From Candidatus Poribacteria bacterium (GTDB lineage Bacteria; Poribacteria; WGA-4E; WGA-3G), in assembly GCA_028824125.1 (NCBI GenBank), contig JAPPES010000085.1, forward strand, positions 3,071 through 67,070: a stretch of DNA of 64,000 nucleotides, in the 5' to 3' direction. The notes under the pieces were generated by a model that saw only the letters and a list, made by a program, of their open reading frames with translations, searched no databases and was not told where the DNA came from. Positions 34,149 through 44,805 of the stretch are shown piece by piece. A program made the translations under genes and the position numbers. Numbering within the stretch: the stretch's first letter is position 1; the number at the start of each line of letters is the position of its first letter.

Positions 34149-34415
34149 ATATTCGTCCTTTGATATTTGAAAGTGTGTGGGTCCAAGATAATTGCGAAAA
34201 TCTACTCCTATTTTATGTGATATACTTTTTTTGTCAAGGAAAACATGATTGATGGGCAGGGTAATTTATAGTGAACTTTGAAATTATTGGGACACTTTGA
34301 TAAACCTGTTTCGGCATCTATCTTTAGAACTGGTTTTACTCCTCCACAATAGCCTGCAAACTGCATCCGAAAATGTGTATAAGTGAATAAAAAATTTCTG
34401 TAGTGGAGCATTAAA

Positions 34416-35978
34416 ATGAGGACTTTATCAGATAAAATCACGCTTAATCTTAACGGTGATGAAGAGGTGTTAGTCACAGGCTGCATTGCACCGATTGAGT
34501 ACACCCAACGCAACTACCACGTGGATTGGGACGAATTAGCGAATTTCCGGGTTGCTGAACCCGAGAAGCAATATCCTGCCTCTATTTTTCAAGCATTTCT
34601 GCCATCGGGATCGGTTTCAGTGGGTGAATGCTGGCAGATTGAAGAAGAAGGCGCGTTAACGCTGCTGCGACAACTCAGTCCAAACCCACAATTGGAATTG
34701 GACGTTGCTGGAGCGGATTCTTACGGTTTGTGGGCATGTCTACGCGCCTACAATGATGCGTTTGCTGAGATTCTGTTCCGTATTCACGCGGAATTCGTTT
34801 TAGAAAAAGGTTGGTTTGCGCCATCGCAGTTTGCTGGACATCTGGTTATTGACCGATTAGAAAAGAAAGTTGCCTCCTTCAAGATGCACGTTCCGGATGC
34901 CACATTGAACTTTGATGCACGTTGGACAATTAGAGATGGACTCTGCGGAGCGGACATCGGTTTTTGTCCGCAAATGGAACTCTGTGCAGGTGAACAAGAC
35001 GTTTTGCAAGATGCCAAATTCACAGTAGCAATCACCCAAGAGGAAGCATTGCACACATTAATGTTATGTTTTTACAAATCAGCGCAAATTAACTGGGTCC
35101 CGCTGGAGAAAGCGTTGGAATTGGCACCATTATTACAGAAACCGATTCACGCCATTTCATCAGGTGGACCACTTGCGGATGAGTCGTGCTGAGGGAGTGG
35201 CAAAAGCTTGAGGGCAGGTGCTCTCTCTGACGACCAAAACATTGAATTCCTGAACGAAAACTTTATCAACACTTGGGTGGCAGATGCTGAATTAGGGCGT
35301 ATCCATAGTCTGCAAGAACCGATTGCCAAAAGGCGCGAGCGCGAGGGTAAAACGTTCGACACGAGCCATCCGTTGGCACAAGCCATTATAAAGGGGTGGA
35401 AAACCGGATCAAAGAAAGGTTCACCCGTAGACTGTTTCGTCATCTCACCTGATTTTGAACTAATGGGCAGACTGCTTGTCAATGAATTTTTCGACTACAA
35501 TTGGAATAAATTTAAACGCCGAGACGAGGAGAGTTACCTTATGTTTCTCAAGGAGTCCTTGGAGGGGAAGCAGCCCGGATTGGGGAACATCACTCTGAAC
35601 AGTGAAGAACCTTCACAGGATGTCTTTGATGTTTTTCGGACACCAATAGTTGGTTATAAGGATTATACAGTCGTTGTAATTGATACAAGGGCGTTTGAAA
35701 AGGGCGGCACGATAACTATTGATATTGAAACCGGTAGAGCCGATGCGGAAGGTCACTTCTATTTAGTTGATGGTGACGACGACCTCCCTACAACAGAAAG
35801 AGTGACTAAATACATGGTCCTTGCGATGAAGTGGTTGGAACCTGATGAGACAGGACAACTCACGCACCGTTTTGAGCGAGGTCAGTTTTTTAAGTTGGGT
35901 GCTACCGGGTGTTACGGTAGAAGTGAGAAGGGCAGCGCAAACGCTTTTAAGGCAAAAATTTCTGTAGAGGAGAATTGA
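34416..35978 (+). CDS. putative selenoprotein, array copy 1 (Sec at UGA 35190-35192), thioredoxin-like domain plus C-terminal beta domain
   Basis: ORFs 34416-35192 and 35208-35978 are in the same frame, separated only by one UGA: ...AISSGGPLADESC-U-GSGKSLRAGALSDDQNIEFLNENFINTWV. Confidence 0.85.
35210..35225 (+). promoter_or_regulatory. candidate bacterial SECIS, copy 1
   Basis: GAGGGC-AGGT-GCTCTC hairpin starting 17 nt after the UGA; loop contains GG. Confidence 0.75.
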
Positions 35979-37976
35979 ATGAACACGTTATCAAACAAAA
36001 TCACACTTAACCTTGATAGAGATGCCGAAGTCAACGTTAAAGGTTCCATCGCGCCGATTGAATACACACAATACAACTTTCATGTAGAATGGGATGCGTT
36101 AGCAAATCTGCGCGCCGCTGAGCCAGAAAAACTATATTCCTCATCAATTTTCTCTGATTTCCTTCCAAGTCACCCGATTTCTGTCGGTGATGTTTGGGAA
36201 GTTAAGCAAGATGGTGTATTGGAAATACTAAAGCAGCTTCATCCAGAGCCCAATGTGGATATGCACCTGAATGCAGGAGACTCATGCGGATTATGGGCAT
36301 GTCTACGTGCTTACAACGATGAGCATGCTGACATCGTATTTCGTATCCATGCAGAATTCGCATTAAAAGATGGTTGGTTCACACCCTCTCAATTTAAGGG
36401 TAATCTTGTTATTGATCGAAGCAATGGAAGTATTGTCAGTTTTGAAATGTCCGTCCCAAAAGGTGTGCTCAATTTTGATGTGAATTGGTATACGATATTG
36501 GAAGGTTATAGTAAACCTGCTTGGTATACGGATATAGGATACTGTCCACAAATGAAACTTCGGACAGGAATTGATGACTTCATACACAACATAAAATACA
36601 CAGAATCCATCACACAAGAAGAAGCATCAAACAAGTTGATAAGTTGTTTTTACAAATCACAACAAATCAATTGGGTATCCTTGGAAGAAGCCTTGCAAAT
36701 GGCAACAGTACAACAAAAACCCATCCATGCTATATCCATAAACGGACCACTTATTGACGAATCATGCTGAGGGAGTGGAAAAAGTTTGAGGGCAGGTGTC
36801 CTCTCGGATGAGCAAATAATATCATTCTTGAATGAAAATTTCATTAACACCTGGGTGCCTAATGCGGAATTAGGACGTATCCGAAGTTTACGTGAACCGA
36901 TTGCCAAAAGACGCGAGCGTGAATCCAAGACATTTGACACAAGCCATGAATTAGCACAGACAATCATTAAAGGATGGAAAACCGGGACAAAAAAAGGTTC
37001 ACCGGTAGACTGCTTTGTCATTTCTCCAGAATTTGAACTGATGGGTAGACTACTGGTTAATGATCTTGACGATGACCGGAAAAATAGAGGATTGCCGTCT
37101 GAGGAAGCGCATTACCTCACATTTCTCAATGAAGCGTTAGAAGAAAAACAGCCAGGATTGGGAAACATTGTTCTTTCCAGAGAACATCGTTCGCGAGAAG
37201 TGTCGGACGTATTTCGACCCTCAAAAGTAGAGAATCATTGTCTCACGGTTGTCTTGATCGATGCGCGGTCGTTTGAAAACGGAGGCACATTAACTATTGA
37301 CATTATAGTCGGTAGAGAAGAAGGTGAAGGATTGTTTTATTTATTTGACGGTGATCATATACTCTCTAAGGAGGGGAAAGTATCATTGGATAGTAACCTT
37401 GCTTGGACATGGGGCGAACCAGATGATAGAAAAGAGATAGTACATCGTTTCAATCGTGGACAATTTTTTAAGTTTGTCGCAACAGGAGATAGGGATGCAA
37501 ATAGACCTTATATCAACGCTTTTCACGCTAAGTTTTCTGTTGAGGAAAACTCGAATGGAGACACTAAAACCATTTCCTCAACCGAATTGAATGTTGTACT
37601 TGACAGTACTCAACCATCACTGGAAATATTAGACATTTTTCGCGCACCAGGACACGGCAATCAGGATTATACTGTCGTGAATATTGATACTACGGCGTTT
37701 GATAATGGTGGAATGTTAACTATTGATATCCATGTAGGGAGTGCTAAAGCTTCTGGCTCTTTTGACTTGTATGATGGTAACATAAAATTACCGACAAAAG
37801 GTATGCCAAAGGAAGCTTTTGGCTCTGCATGGGGAATTGAACCCGGTAAAAATGATACAATAACACACCGTTTTGAGAAAGGTATAATCTTTAAACTTGG
37901 GGCGACTGGCGATTGGTTCAGTAAGAAAGGAAGTATCAACGCCTTTCACGCAAAAATTTCTGTAGAGGAAAACTGA
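35979..37976 (+). CDS. putative selenoprotein, array copy 2 (Sec at UGA 36768-36770), with duplicated C-terminal domain
   Basis: ORFs 35979-36770 and 36786-37976 in the same frame; AISINGPLIDESC-U-GSGKSLRAGVLSDEQIISFLNENFINTWV. Confidence 0.85.
36788..36803 (+). promoter_or_regulatory. candidate bacterial SECIS, copy 2
   Basis: GAGGGC-AGGT-GTCCTC, 17 nt after the UGA. Confidence 0.75.
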
Positions 37977-37977
37977 A

Positions 37978-39573
37978 ATGGAAACTTTAGAAAACAAAAT
38001 CACACTTAATCTTGATGGCAACGCAGAAGTATCTGTCACAGGCTTCATCGCCCCCATTGAATACACACAATACAACTTCCACGTGGAATGGGATGAATTA
38101 GCGAACTTTCGGGTTGCTGAACCGGAGAAACAGTATCCTGTATCTGTTTTTCAAGGATTTCTCCCGTCAGAATCGGTTGCGGTGAGTGAATGCTGGCAGA
38201 TTGAAGAAGAAAGCGCGCTGACGTTGCTACAGCAACTCTATCCCAATCCAAAACTGAGACTGCAAAATGATGATGAGGAATACACGGGAATATGGGCATG
38301 TCTACGTGCTCACAATGATACACTCGCTGAAATCGCGTTCCGCGTTCACGCAGAATTCACCATGAAGAAGGGCAAGTTTACGCCATCACAGTTTGCGGGG
38401 CATTTAGTGATAGACCGAATTCAACAGAAAATTGTGTCTTTCAAAATGTTCGTTCCGCCAACAACACTGAACTTCGATGCCGGTTGGAAACAAGAAGATG
38501 GGAACTATTTTGCGGAGATCGGTTATTGCCCACAGCTTCAGCTCTGTGCTGGCATATATCCTACTGATGTGGAATACAAAACATCAATCACACAGGAAGA
38601 AGCAGAACGCAGGCTAATATCACATTATTACATGTTCCATAAAATCAATTGGATATCGCTTGCAGAAGCGTTTGAACTGGCTCCTGTTCAACAGAAACTG
38701 ATACATGTTGTCTCATTAGATGGGCCGCTTTTCGACGAGTCGTGCTGAGGCACCGGCAGAATCTTGAGGACAGGTGTTCTCTCTAAAAATACAATTATTG
38801 AATTCTTGAACGAAAATTTCATCAACACCTGGGTGGAAAATGCAGAATTAGGACGGACAGGCAGCTTGCAAGACCCTATCGCAAAAAGACGTAAGCGGGA
38901 AGGAAGAACCTTCAATACAAACCACGCCTTAGCAAGAACTATTATGAAAGGATGGGTAAAAGGTTCACCAGTAGACTGTTTCGTTATCTCACACGATTTT
39001 GATTTGATGGGAAGTGTCGACTTCAATGAATTCCTTGACAACCTGCAACGACCTGAGGATGAACCTATGGCTGTGGCATACATGCAATTTCTCAAGGATT
39101 CCTTGGAAGGAAAACGTCCTGGTTTGGGAGATATCATCCTTACACCCGAACAACCTTTGCAAGAGGTGTTAGACACTATTCACACTCCGAAAAAGGCACA
39201 TCAGGACTACACAGTTGTCGGTATCAACACCACTGCATTTTCAAATGGTGGCACACTTACTATTGATATCCAAGTCGGTAGAGATGATGCAATTGGATTA
39301 TTTTTCTTGCTGGATGGAGATAAAAAATTGCCAACTGAGAAAGTGCCAGAAGGAATTGATCCCACAGAATGGCACAGTCAGGAAAGTGATGAATATGAGA
39401 AGGCGCTTGATGCACTTACCAAGCTCTGGGGTATATTCCCCGGTCAAACTGGGCGAATTACTTATCAGTTTAGTCGGGGTCAACGTTTCAAATTGTGTGC
39501 AACTGGAGACCAATGGGGCGGAGTAGGCGGCATAAACGCTTTTCACGCAAAAATTTCTGTAGAGGAGAACTGA
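37978..39573 (+). CDS. putative selenoprotein, array copy 3 (Sec at UGA 38746-38748)
   Basis: ORFs 37978-38748 and 38764-39573 in the same frame; VSLDGPLFDESC-U-GTGRILRTGVLSKNTIIEFLNENFINTWV. Confidence 0.85.
38766..38781 (+). promoter_or_regulatory. candidate bacterial SECIS, copy 3
   Basis: GAGGAC-AGGT-GTTCTC, 17 nt after the UGA. Confidence 0.75.
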
Positions 39574-39574
39574 A

Positions 39575-41143
39575 ATGGAAACTTTAGGAAACAAAATCAC
39601 ACTTAATCTTGATGGCAACGCAGAAGTCAATGTCAAAGGCTTTATCGCGCCGATTGAATACACACAATACAACTTCCACGTGGAGTGGGATGAATTGGCA
39701 AATCTGCATGTCGTTGAACCGGAAAAGCAATATCCTGCCTCCGTTTTTCAATCTTTTCTACCGTCGGAATCGGTTTCAGTTGGTGAACTTTGGCAAATTG
39801 AAAAAGAAGGTGTGCTCACATTGCTAAGGCAACTTCATCCCGATCCACGCCTGGAAATGGATGCAGAAGACTCGCAAGGGCTGTGGGCATGTCTGCGTGG
39901 TCATAACGATCAATTTGCTGACATCGTGTTTCGCGTTCATGCAGAATTTGCTTTAAAAGGTGGTTGGTTCACACCTTCCCAGTTTGCTGGTCATCTCGTC
40001 ATCGATCGAACCAAAGATAAAATCGCACACTTTCAGATGTGCGTGCCTGAAACGACACTGAATTTCGATGTTGGTTGGGATACGATAGGCTGTACAGACA
40101 TCGGTTTCTGTCCACAAATAGAGCTCTGTGTAGGGACTCCACCTAATGACGTAGAATTTGCCGTGTCAATCACCCAAGAAGAGGCGGAACGTGCCTTGAT
40201 ACTGTGTTTCTACAAGTCGGAAAAAATTAACTGGGTGCCGCCAGATCAAGCAGTAGAGATAGCTGAACAAGAGGTTAAGCTCATTCATGTAATCTCAATA
40301 AATGGTCCATTAGCCGACGAGGCTTGCTGAGGGAGCGGCAAAGAATTGAGGGCAGTTGTCCTCTCTGATAACCAAATCATTAAATTCCTAAATGAAAACT
40401 TTATCAATACTTGGGTAACCAATGCCGAATTAGGACGTACTCCCAGTTTACGAGAACCAATAGCCAAAAGACGCGAGCGAGAAGGAAAAACATTAAACAC
40501 AACATATCCTTTGGCACAAGCCATCAGAGAGGGATGGACAGAAGGTTCACCGGTGGATTGTTTAGTGATTTCCCCAGAATTTGATGTGATGGGAAAACTC
40601 CCTCTAAATGATTTCTTAGACGACTGTTCAGAAAAAAGTATCTCGGAAGTGGAGGGATACCTTACGTTTCTTATGGATTCTTTAGATGCGAAATTTCCTG
40701 GGTTTGGTGAGAACACCTCAGACACTTTATTGACTGGTTTAAATGTAACCCTTAATGGAGAACATTTTGAGCAAGAGGTCCTACACATTCTTCGAGCACC
40801 TGGATACGGTGACCAAGACTATAATGTCATTACAATAGATGCCACAGCGTTTGAAGATGGTGGGACACTTATGATTGATATTCGGATGGGTAGCGCCAAA
40901 TCTGGTGGATCGTTTGATCTGTTTGATGGCGATACCGAATTGCCTACAAAAGGAATTCCCACCCAAGCGCTTACTTCTGTGTGGGATATTCCGTCCGAGC
41001 AGATAGGAAAAATACGACATCCTTTTGACAAAGGCAAAATCTTTAAGCTGGGTGCTACAGGCACTTGGTTCAGTGGAAAAGGAAACGTCAATGCTTTTCA
41101 GGCAAGGATTTCTGTAGAGCCAAAAGAAAAGAATGAAAATTAG
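39575..41143 (+). CDS. putative selenoprotein, array copy 4 (Sec at UGA 40328-40330)
   Basis: ORFs 39575-40330 and 40346-41143 in the same frame; ISINGPLADEAC-U-GSGKELRAVVLSDNQIIKFLNENFINTWV. Confidence 0.85.
40348..40363 (+). promoter_or_regulatory. candidate bacterial SECIS, copy 4
   Basis: GAGGGC-AGTT-GTCCTC, 17 nt after the UGA; loop has a single G. Confidence 0.65.
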
Positions 41144-41318
41144 TGCAGAAAATTCTACATGATGCCCTATTCGGACCAGTTTCGAAAGAATAATAAAATG
41201 CTTTTTTCTTGTAGGTTTTAGCCAAACCTGCTATCATTTCTAATTACACCAATAAAATACAATTGATAATGTAGGCATTGAATATTCTATTAGAAGATTG
41301 GATGTTAGTGGAGTTATT

Positions 41319-42944
41319 ATGAAAAGATTAAGATTGCTGTTATTAACTGTAATTTTAATGATAGTATCAATCCAAGTTAACGCAGATTATTTGGTAAAAA
41401 CGATTTATTTTAAACCCAATAACGTAGACAATGTTCCAATCGAAAAAATTAGAGGATGGATGAATGATGTTCAAGAACTATATATGGAAGAAATGTCCAG
41501 GAATGGTTACGGAAATAAGGCTTTTAAATTAGAGAGGGATGCAAATGGAAATGTAAAAGTAAATGTAGTAGATGGCAATCATCCATCATGGACATATAAA
41601 TCCAATACTTGGAATAATGTGAATCCGGAAATACCAGAAATATTTAAAAATCAAAAAAATGTACATGTTTATATTATAGGTGGTATTGACACAATTAATT
41701 TGCATCAAGGGTGCTGTCAGTGGGGTGTTGGATGGCCTATTTATAATTTTAATTTTGGAGGTTCTTGTATTGTTGCCGAAAACGCAAATACATCTTTAGT
41801 TAGGCTTATTGCACATGAAATAGGACATACTTTTAGCTTATATCATACTGGCACTTCTAATACTATAATGGGATCAGGAAACGAACTTTTAGAGTATGAA
41901 GCAAGATGGTTAGATAAACATTATTTTTTTAATGATAACATAATGATAAAATGGAATCATCCAAAAGTTAATCAAGTATTTAATGTTGAAGAAATAGAAC
42001 CTAATTTAATTAGTATTAAAGCGAATATTACAAGTCCGAGTGGCTTGTATCAAGTTGTTGTTATGGATAATAACATATTAGTAATAGGATGGCAATATAT
42101 CAGCGGTAAAAATACCAATGTAGATATAAGAATAGATAGAAGTAAACTTGTAGGAAAGAATCATATAACATTTATGGTTATGGATACTTTTGGTGCATTT
42201 ACACATCACAGATTTGATTATATAATGCCACCAAGATTTAAGGATACAGTTGTTGAGCAAAATACTACTAAGCGCAATAAAAATGAAGATTTGGGGCTTG
42301 AGAAAGATCCAGAACCAATAACCATCAAAGAAGATACCTCTGAAAATGTTGTATATCTTAACATTAATTCAGGTAAAAAGACTTTACCCGATGAAGACGG
42401 ATTAAAACCTTTTAATTCCAGTCACGAATATAAAAATGGCTGGGCATGGAAATTTATTTCAGATAATAAAACTAATAATGGCAATCCTATTGTTATTAGA
42501 AACGCCACTTTTGAAAGAGGTTTATCATTATCTCCACCTGATCATCCAAAAGTCTCATCCCTTAAATATAATTTGCAAGGAAACAATTACATTGCATTTG
42601 AAGGATATATTGGGATAACTAACGATCGAGATTTTGAGATAGGCAAAAATGAAAATAAAAGTTGTTTTGTAGGTGGCAGCTGCATATTCACATTTGAAAT
42701 CGATGGAGAGAAGGTATATAAATCTGGATTATTAACTGGAAAAGATAGCTATGAAAAGATTGATTTCTATATACCTTATGATGCGGAAGTTTTAAGAATC
42801 ATTATTGATAGTAGTGCAGATACTTCATGGTGCGATCATCCTGCAATAGGTGATCCTAAATTAATATCTAATTCACAAATTAGATATAGTATAAATCCTA
42901 AAGGCAAAGTCGCTACTTTATGGAGTGAAATTAAACAGAAGTAA
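41319..42944 (+). CDS. secreted zinc metallopeptidase with C-terminal NPCBM-like domain
   Basis: Signal peptide; HEIGHTFSLYH (HExxHxxxxxH); C-term YIGITNDRDFEIGKNENKSCFVGGSCIFTFEIDGEKVYKSG. Confidence 0.75.
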   Translation: MKRLRLLLLTVILMIVSIQVNADYLVKTIYFKPNNVDNVPIEKIRGWMNDVQELYMEEMSRNGYGNKAFKLERDANGNVKVNVVDGNHPSWTYKSNTWNNVNPEIPEIFKNQKNVHVYIIGGIDTINLHQGCCQWGVGWPIYNFNFGGSCIVAENANTSLVRLIAHEIGHTFSLYHTGTSNTIMGSGNELLEYEARWLDKHYFFNDNIMIKWNHPKVNQVFNVEEIEPNLISIKANITSPSGLYQVVVMDNNILVIGWQYISGKNTNVDIRIDRSKLVGKNHITFMVMDTFGAFTHHRFDYIMPPRFKDTVVEQNTTKRNKNEDLGLEKDPEPITIKEDTSENVVYLNINSGKKTLPDEDGLKPFNSSHEYKNGWAWKFISDNKTNNGNPIVIRNATFERGLSLSPPDHPKVSSLKYNLQGNNYIAFEGYIGITNDRDFEIGKNENKSCFVGGSCIFTFEIDGEKVYKSGLLTGKDSYEKIDFYIPYDAEVLRIIIDSSADTSWCDHPAIGDPKLISNSQIRYSINPKGKVATLWSEIKQK

Positions 42945-43003
42945 AATTTATTCACAACCATCTAAAATGAAAAGTATATCTCTTTAATTATCACTATTTA
43001 AGA

Positions 43004-43774
43004 GTGTCACAACTCAACAAAATCACTGAAAGGAACAACACAATGCAAAGCCACGAAGTAGATTACGAAATTTTTGGCAACGATATGCAAGTCGTTGAAG
43101 TTGAACTTGACTTAGGTGAGACGATCGTCGCGGAAGCTGGTGCAATGAACTGGATGGAGGATGACATAGAATACGAAGCAAAAATGGGTGACGGGTCTGG
43201 CGGCGACGAGGGTTTAATGGGCAAACTCTTCAGCGCTGGCAAACGTGCGCTCACTGGTGAATCACTGTTTATGACTCACTTCACCAACACGGGCAGCAAC
43301 AAGAGACGAGTTGCTTTCGCCGCCCCCTACCCCGGTCATATTATCCCCATTGATCTTTCTGAAATGGGTGGAGAACTGACCTGCCAGAAGGATGCCTTCC
43401 TGTGCGCTGCCCTCGGGACCGAACTAAGCATTGCATTTTCACGGAAATTGGGAAGAGGTTTTTTCGGTGGTGAGGGGTTTATCCTCCAACGTCTACGTGG
43501 CGATGGCATGGCTTTTGTGCATGCTGGTGGGACTGTCATCAAAAAGGAACTTGTCAACGACACACTCCGCATTGATACCGGTTGCCTTGTTGCCTTCACG
43601 TCTGGTATTGATTATGACATTGAAATGGTGAAAGGCTTAAAGTCAATGTTCTTCGGTGGTGAAGGGCTTTTCCTCGCGACCCTGCAAGGCACCGGAACCG
43701 TTTATCTCCAGAGTTTACCTTTTTCAAAACTTGCTGACCGCATCATTGCACAAGTGCCAAGAAGCAGTAACTGA
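43004..43774 (+). CDS. AIM24/TIGR00266 family protein
   Basis: [34 protein letters not shown]...[21 protein letters not shown]. Confidence 0.9.
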
Positions 43775-43872
43775 TATTTGGACTGTATCCACTAAAAAGA
43801 ATATACGTTCAATTTAGAGATGAATTTGGTTGGTAAATCGTGCTAAACGGAATGAAATAATCGGAACAAACC

Positions 43873-44805
43873 ATGAAGACAAAAGCATTCACCAATACGA
43901 TTATCGTTGGAGACACAACAAAGGTATTGTCAGAACTTATAAAGATAGAAAAGCAATACGATGTGATTATTGCTGATCCGCCCTACAACATCGGGAAAGA
44001 TTTCGGGAATGATACCGAAGTAATGCCGATAGATAATTATGTTGAATGGGCAGAGGCGTGGATAAAAGATTGTCTTCAACTCCTCACAGATGATGGCTTG
44101 CTTTATCTGTATGGATTCCCAGAAATTATTGCAAGATTATCTGTTTGCTTCCCTATCCACGAGCAGCGTTGGTTAGTATGGCATTATACCAATAAGACTG
44201 TTCCGTCATTAAAATTTTGGCAAAGGTCTCACGAAACAATATTGTGTCTATGGAAACCGAATATGCCGCGCACCAATTTGGAGATAGACCAAATCAGAGA
44301 ACCTTATACCGAGAACTTCTTAAAAAATGCGGCAGGAAAAGAGCGAAAAGATACGCCATCTCGCTACGGTTCGCCAGGCAAAATAACTATTTATAATGCC
44401 CATAAAAACGGTGCTTTGCCGAGAGATGTAATAAAAATTCCGGCTTTAGCAGGTGGTGCTGGGCGTTCTGAAAGGTGGTTTATTTGTAGAACATGTGGGT
44501 CTCAAATTTTTCCGCCTGCCGATTTATCCGAACATCGTGAACATGATATATTGAAGCATCCCACTCAAAAGCCCATGGAATTAACGAGACGACTCATTCT
44601 ATCTCGTATCAATGGAGCAGATGGCAGAGTACTTGTGCCGTTTGCCGGTTCGGGTTCTGAATGTGTCGTGGCACAAGCATTGAGGACTGAATATCTTGGT
44701 ATAGAAATAAATCCTGAGTTCGCTGATTTCGCAATGAAGTGGCTGGAATATGAACGTAAAGAGCAAATAACACTGAAACTTTTTGAACACACAGTGGAAA
44801 TGTGA
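43873..44805 (+). CDS. DNA methyltransferase (N4/N6, beta-like order)
   Basis: IADPPYNIGKDFGND; KHPTQKPMELTRRLIL; VLVPFAGSGSECVVAQAL. Confidence 0.9.
   Translation: MKTKAFTNTIIVGDTTKVLSELIKIEKQYDVIIADPPYNIGKDFGNDTEVMPIDNYVEWAEAWIKDCLQLLTDDGLLYLYGFPEIIARLSVCFPIHEQRWLVWHYTNKTVPSLKFWQRSHETILCLWKPNMPRTNLEIDQIREPYTENFLKNAAGKERKDTPSRYGSPGKITIYNAHKNGALPRDVIKIPALAGGAGRSERWFICRTCGSQIFPPADLSEHREHDILKHPTQKPMELTRRLILSRINGADGRVLVPFAGSGSECVVAQALRTEYLGIEINPEFADFAMKWLEYERKEQITLKLFEHTVEM

Follow-up and report, generated by a model that had tools for sequence, protein, structure and literature searches.

Probable selenoproteins related to selenoprotein N encoded by a tandem gene array in Candidatus Poribacteria

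Loss of selenoprotein N leads to a myopathy in humans, the function of the protein is incompletely understood, and the selenocysteine redefinition element (SRE) of its mRNA is mutated in SEPN1 myopathy. Human SELENON carries selenocysteine (Sec) at position 462 within an SCUG motif, and its disease residues include G463, R466, and R469 (PMC8967691, PMC3541580, PMC12839072). The SRE is a stem-loop located just past the UGA codon of the human SELENON mRNA, and it stimulates Sec insertion (PMC8704476). SELENON has been reported from a sponge (PMC3473315) and from few algae, almost exclusively in the Sec form (PMC7539508), and the selenoprotein inventories examined enter selenoprotein N for eukaryotes only. 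Here we describe a tandem array of four genes at positions 34416-41143 on the plus strand of the window, a stretch of 64,000 nucleotides from a Candidatus Poribacteria bacterium, in which each gene is open except for one internal in-frame TGA. With a rough probability of 0.87, sequence comparisons and predicted structures point to an array encoding bacterial proteins that are soluble, probably cytosolic, and related to the catalytic half of SelN, with UGA decoded as Sec and a presumed role as tandemly multiplied Cys-Sec redox enzymes.

Comparison of SELENON with the bacterial family revealed several common features: (i) both contain S-C-U-G followed by a basic residue at +4 and Arg at +7 (the positions of R466 and R469) within a thioredoxin-like catalytic domain, (ii) both almost always carry Sec and hardly ever Cys at this place, as far as the bacterial sequences searched show, and (iii) the SRE stem-loop of human SELENON sits at the place of the Sec insertion sequence (SECIS) of the bacterial family. 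Unlike SELENON, which has an N-terminal transmembrane segment and is located in the ER lumen, the bacterial proteins lack a membrane anchor, show no sign of an EF-hand in the scans, contain an added beta-sandwich or TlpA domain, and are encoded in many-copy tandem arrays; their SECIS is located within the gene, whereas that of SELENON is in the 3' untranslated region. For the Ca-dependent control of SERCA by SELENON, a counterpart in bacteria is not expected.

Among solved folds, those closest to the family's thioredoxin domain are Thioredox_DsbH, ERp18 (TXNDC12), and AGR2/AGR3. In these folds, Cys is part of CxxC- or CxxS-type motifs, whereas the family has C-U-x-x-G at its active site, where a Cys adjoins the Sec. 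Trx7/PDZ (NF041199), SaoT (NF040730), and UGSC (NF041046) are likewise bacterial selenoproteins with redox-type Sec motifs; the family matches none of these three NCBIfam models and differs from them in both motif and architecture. A literature search that covered few subscription papers found neither a bacterial SelN nor any report joining Poribacteria with selenoproteins, although a bacterial SelN relative may have been mentioned earlier. The initial annotation considered the array to represent a probable undescribed selenoprotein family. This stands insofar as the family is absent from the prokaryotic catalogs searched, namely Pfam, NCBIfam, and a 2026 review of 119 prokaryotic selenoprotein families that names none of this kind (PMC13188914), but the family is recognizably related to eukaryotic selenoprotein N.

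Decoding of the in-frame UGA codons

The four genes are located at 34416..35978 (520 aa with Sec259), 35979..37976 (665 aa with Sec264), 37978..39573 (531 aa with Sec257), and 39575..41143 (522 aa with Sec252), and their Sec UGA codons are at 35190..35192, 36768..36770, 38746..38748, and 40328..40330, respectively, all on the plus strand. The initial annotation had described eight open reading frames (ORFs) forming four pairs, each with an upstream ORF (A) and a downstream ORF (B) separated by UGA; the ORFs, their coordinates, and the read-through lengths were all reproduced. Aligned over their length, the four copies share about 60% identity and have invariant residues both before and after the UGA, which in each of them sits within the conserved motif C-U-G-[ST]-G-[KR]-x-L-R. 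Gene finders taking UGA as a stop would break every such gene into two truncated ORFs.

Of 85 Poribacteria genomes, 65 contain relatives detected by a profile of the four proteins; a single genome yielded as many as 18 matches, some of them fragments. A core-only profile matched the same 65 genomes, with about 447 matches in total and up to 17 per genome. Such copy numbers within one phylum may rank with the largest expansions that any one selenoprotein family has undergone in a single genome. Among the matches listed, nearly all full-length relatives contain exactly one in-frame TGA, and the two core matches without TGA (G069:C167 and G065:C10) stop short of the Sec column. In all 137 distinct contexts taken from relative loci, the codon at the Sec column is TGA. 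The same genomes harbor another clade, mostly of low copy number, characterized by ILLWGALDDESCU, VLLFGVLDDESCUGSGK, and similar sequences, the former being found in divergent single-copy members. A scan of genome contigs limited to narrow patterns yielded 54 loci, every one from Poribacteria, and no relatives were found in a scan of viral contigs. Decaying copies are common in tandem arrays, and a few relatives do contain extra stops, as would be expected if the UGAs were nonsense mutations in pseudogenes. However, retention of the same TGA in 137 distinct relatives, the spread of the family over 65 genomes, and the otherwise intact frame leave this explanation with hardly any probability and bear out the argument of the initial annotation that the shared UGA is not random nonsense.

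Each Sec codon of the array is followed by a SECIS hairpin on the plus strand, located at 35210..35225 in gene 1 (GAGGGC-AGGT-GCTCTC), 36788..36803 in gene 2 (GAGGGC-AGGT-GTCCTC), 38766..38781 in gene 3 (GAGGAC-AGGT-GTTCTC), and 40348..40363 in gene 4 (GAGGGC-AGTT-GTCCTC); no such hairpin follows the three terminal TGAs. In the family, the 6-bp stem pairs positions +20..+25 past the UGA with +30..+35 around a tetraloop (AGGU or AGUU), or with +32..+37 around a hexaloop (for example, GGGUCC). Of 119 distinct sequences, 117 contain the perfect stem, whereas synonymous recoding produced it in 5.5 on average and in at most 13. The stem shows compensatory substitutions, including a G-C to C-G change of the outer pair, with both loop types. 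Codon preference is strong in codons 1-15 past the UGA (0.55-4.2 bits per codon over background), likely because of the hairpin, and mostly below 0.6 bits in codons 16-34. A hairpin was regarded as a SECIS if located about 16-37 nucleotides 3' of the UGA with a G in the loop; the family hairpin, with a loop of the GGU/GUU type, has both features, which fit the published bacterial SECIS model. An Rfam scan of the array gave no meaningful match.

The host genome (5.59 Mb assembly, 94% complete) contains all four components of the Sec machinery that the initial annotation proposed to look for: selA (611 bits), selB (350 bits), an adjoining gene for tRNA-Sec with anticodon TCA (UCA), and selD (369 bits). 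The host selD (L019, G000:C40:806-1732) carries an in-frame TGA of its own and probably encodes a selenoprotein too. In the phylum, selA scores above the curated cut-off in 57 of the 65 family-bearing genomes and is also present in 15 genomes without the family; thus, the Sec trait is broader than the family. SelA and SelB have been reported as enriched among sponge symbionts (PMC5649159).

If UGA were instead decoded as a different amino acid, through a variant code or near-cognate tRNA, this would account for the open frames only. TGA is also an ordinary stop that terminates array genes 1-3 (in gene 1 at 35976-35978) and 10 of 32 long ORFs of the window; thus, the code is not reassigned. Together with the hairpin found at internal TGAs only and the complete Sec machinery, this makes such decoding very improbable. 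The same use of TGA as a normal stop is compatible with A and B being separate proteins of an operon, the latter produced by re-initiation at the nearby TTG that the initial annotation had taken as the start of the B ORFs. Of the 137 contexts, 57 have Shine-Dalgarno-like bases past the UGA, and 83 have TTG as the codon. This putative start is not conserved, being CTG in 49 contexts and CTG, TTC, or TTT in 53, whereas the G-x-G-[KR] between UGA and the putative start is conserved, the hairpin is retained, and neither TAA nor TAG ever replaces TGA. The true A starts of genes 2-4 do have Shine-Dalgarno sites, and the predicted models suggest that separation would split the thioredoxin domain at its active site. 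Separate A and B proteins are therefore improbable. Reading of the internal UGA as Sec, to judge from these sequence comparisons, is almost certain, and the four array genes are very probably real selenoprotein genes, as the initial annotation had proposed: the selA, selB, selC, and selD genes, the hairpin, and the TGA retained in all relatives agree on this point.

Domain architecture and probable relation to selenoprotein N

The predicted structure of the core (AlphaFold, mean pLDDT 80.8) contains a thioredoxin domain with the best Foldseek matches to Thioredox_DsbH, DsbH, ERp19/ERp18, and AGR2/AGR3. The core was folded separately, since the beta-sandwich dominates and swamps the matches of the full 520-aa model. 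The thioredoxin domain is preceded by an N-terminal beta-rich domain and followed by a C-terminal beta-sandwich, which is doubled in gene 2. Both AlphaFold and Foldseek thus support the suggestion of the initial annotation that Sec occupies the catalytic position of a thioredoxin fold. Relative to CxxCK-type motifs, Sec would take the position of the first Cys and Gly that of the second, with an extra Cys immediately before Sec. No Pfam or NCBIfam family was significant, with a weak hint of Thioredox_DsbH (DUF255; E-value 0.05), and PDB sequence searches found no related chain, the single match being a chance one to cohesin.

The family motif S-C-U-G-[ST]-G-[KR]-x-L-R fits the SCUG, G463, R466, and R469 of SELENON, with K or R at the position of R466. 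A provisional SELENON fragment of 183 residues, not taken from a database, shows up to 40% identity to bacterial members over 127 residues; the similarity spans 127-137 residues (E-value about 1e-31 in a small sequence set). HHalign of the provisional fragment against the family profile gave a probability of 99.8, compared with 0.1 for a shuffled control. The provisional fragment has a tail of 128 residues, exactly the length expected for a protein of 590 residues with Sec462, and R466 and R469 are correctly placed in it. In a tree, this fragment formed a very long branch, and the tree was not used for inference.

Alternatively, the family could be a selenoprotein family unrelated to SelN that has a DsbH/ERp18-like thioredoxin fold and acquired its SCUG-like motif by convergence. 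Indeed, the generic DsbH and ERp18 give the best fold matches, and the comparison was made with the provisional fragment rather than with database SELENON sequences. Nevertheless, similarity over 127-137 residues, albeit to the provisional fragment, and the match of published residues beyond SCUG (R466 and R469) make convergence unlikely. Common descent with SELENON is highly probable, and it would extend the short list of selenoprotein families common to bacteria and eukaryotes. Poribacteria live in sponges, and SelN is present in sponges. If ancestry is shared, the SRE may be placed like the bacterial SECIS because it is a relic of it; that SelN has a bacterial branch, moved between bacteria and early eukaryotes, and left such a relic in the human mRNA is a doubtful scenario.

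Several observations weigh against the reading of the array as SelN-like selenoproteins. First, the alignment with SELENON depends on the provisional fragment, so that the similarity is taken as a strong lead, not as proof. Second, even the best Foldseek match of the thioredoxin domain has an E-value of only about 1e-3. Third, the four window proteins contain no transmembrane segment corresponding to the membrane anchor typical of SELENON, and no Pfam match to its typical EF-hand was found in the members scanned; therefore, we term the proteins SelN-like homologs rather than assigning them to SELENON. Fourth, Cys at the Sec column was found neither in the 137 contexts nor in the listed matches of the phylum, other phyla not having been searched deeply. 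The initial annotation had named a lack of Cys homologs as evidence against a selenoprotein; within the searched data there are none, but this does not refute the reading because SELENON itself is almost exclusively Sec-containing in algae (PMC7539508), in agreement with the absence of Cys forms in the bacterial family. Finally, 8 of the 65 family-bearing genomes have no selA above the curated cut-off, including G035 (95% complete) and G061 (96%). Two of the eight hold fragments, and assembly gaps could perhaps account for the missing selA.

Proposed mechanism

We propose that SelB, tRNA-Sec, and the hairpin past the UGA would cause the ribosome to insert Sec at the internal UGA. The predicted product would consist of the N-terminal beta-rich domain, a thioredoxin domain of the DsbH/ERp18/AGR type with the S-C-U-G-S-G-K-x-L-R motif, and the C-terminal beta-sandwich. 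The vicinal Cys and Sec in a thioredoxin fold suggest a reductase, in which the Sec selenolate would attack an oxidized substrate (a disulfide, peroxide, or persulfide), and the adjacent Cys would resolve the Sec-substrate intermediate as a selenenylsulfide. Analogous Cys-Sec selenenylsulfide chemistry is known for the GCUG motif of thioredoxin reductase. Re-reduction might be performed by a thioredoxin- or TlpA-type partner; some relatives are fused to a TlpA-like thioredoxin, which is likely their electron donor. A general redox role of the family appears likely. One gene (L086:5001-6764, the same gene as in L069) encodes a SelN-like selenoprotein with a C-terminal TlpA-like thioredoxin, and another TlpA-like gene is adjacent to it. 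Apart from the TlpA-type fusions, the neighbors of single-copy members revealed no clear partner.

The window proteins are probably cytosolic, as suggested by their lack of a hydrophobic N-terminus; no hydrophobic segment was detected in any of the four (maximum 19-residue Kyte-Doolittle mean about 1.07). Tandem duplication would have multiplied the gene, and copies with differing N- and C-terminal surfaces perhaps serve different partners. As a soluble bacterial relative of SelN with hundreds of natural variants, the family would be tractable for studies of structure and activity.

Organization of the array and its surroundings

The ATG starts of genes 2-4 are preceded by Shine-Dalgarno-like sites (GAGGAG or similar) within the final codons of the preceding gene; for gene 2, this is GAGGAG at 35967..35972 on the plus strand, inside the final codons of gene 1. 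From this arrangement, the array looks like a translationally coupled operon. The C-terminal beta-sandwich domain of gene 1 is encoded at 35586..35975 on the plus strand, genes 3 and 4 contain one copy each, and gene 2 contains two (about 37161-37553 and 37590-37973).

Just 5' of gene 1, positions 34386-34415 of the window (AAATTTCTGTAGTGGAG) are similar to the end of an array-gene copy and may be left over from an upstream copy that was lost. On the 3' side, positions 41298-44805 encode an NPCBM domain-containing protein that resembles metallopeptidases, an AIM24 protein, and a DNA methylase. A fifth copy, with the motif CUASGK, is located in the same genome outside the array (L082, G000:C21:48678-50216).

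Shorter members were observed in other families of the order (G016:C4:93455-94627, G018:C39:35308-36408, G013:C14, and G014:C41). They end at about residue 385 and lack the beta-sandwich, and some of them form tandem arrays of three or four. The beta-sandwich domain also occurs without the thioredoxin half, as repeated copies, at G016:C25:111907-112755.

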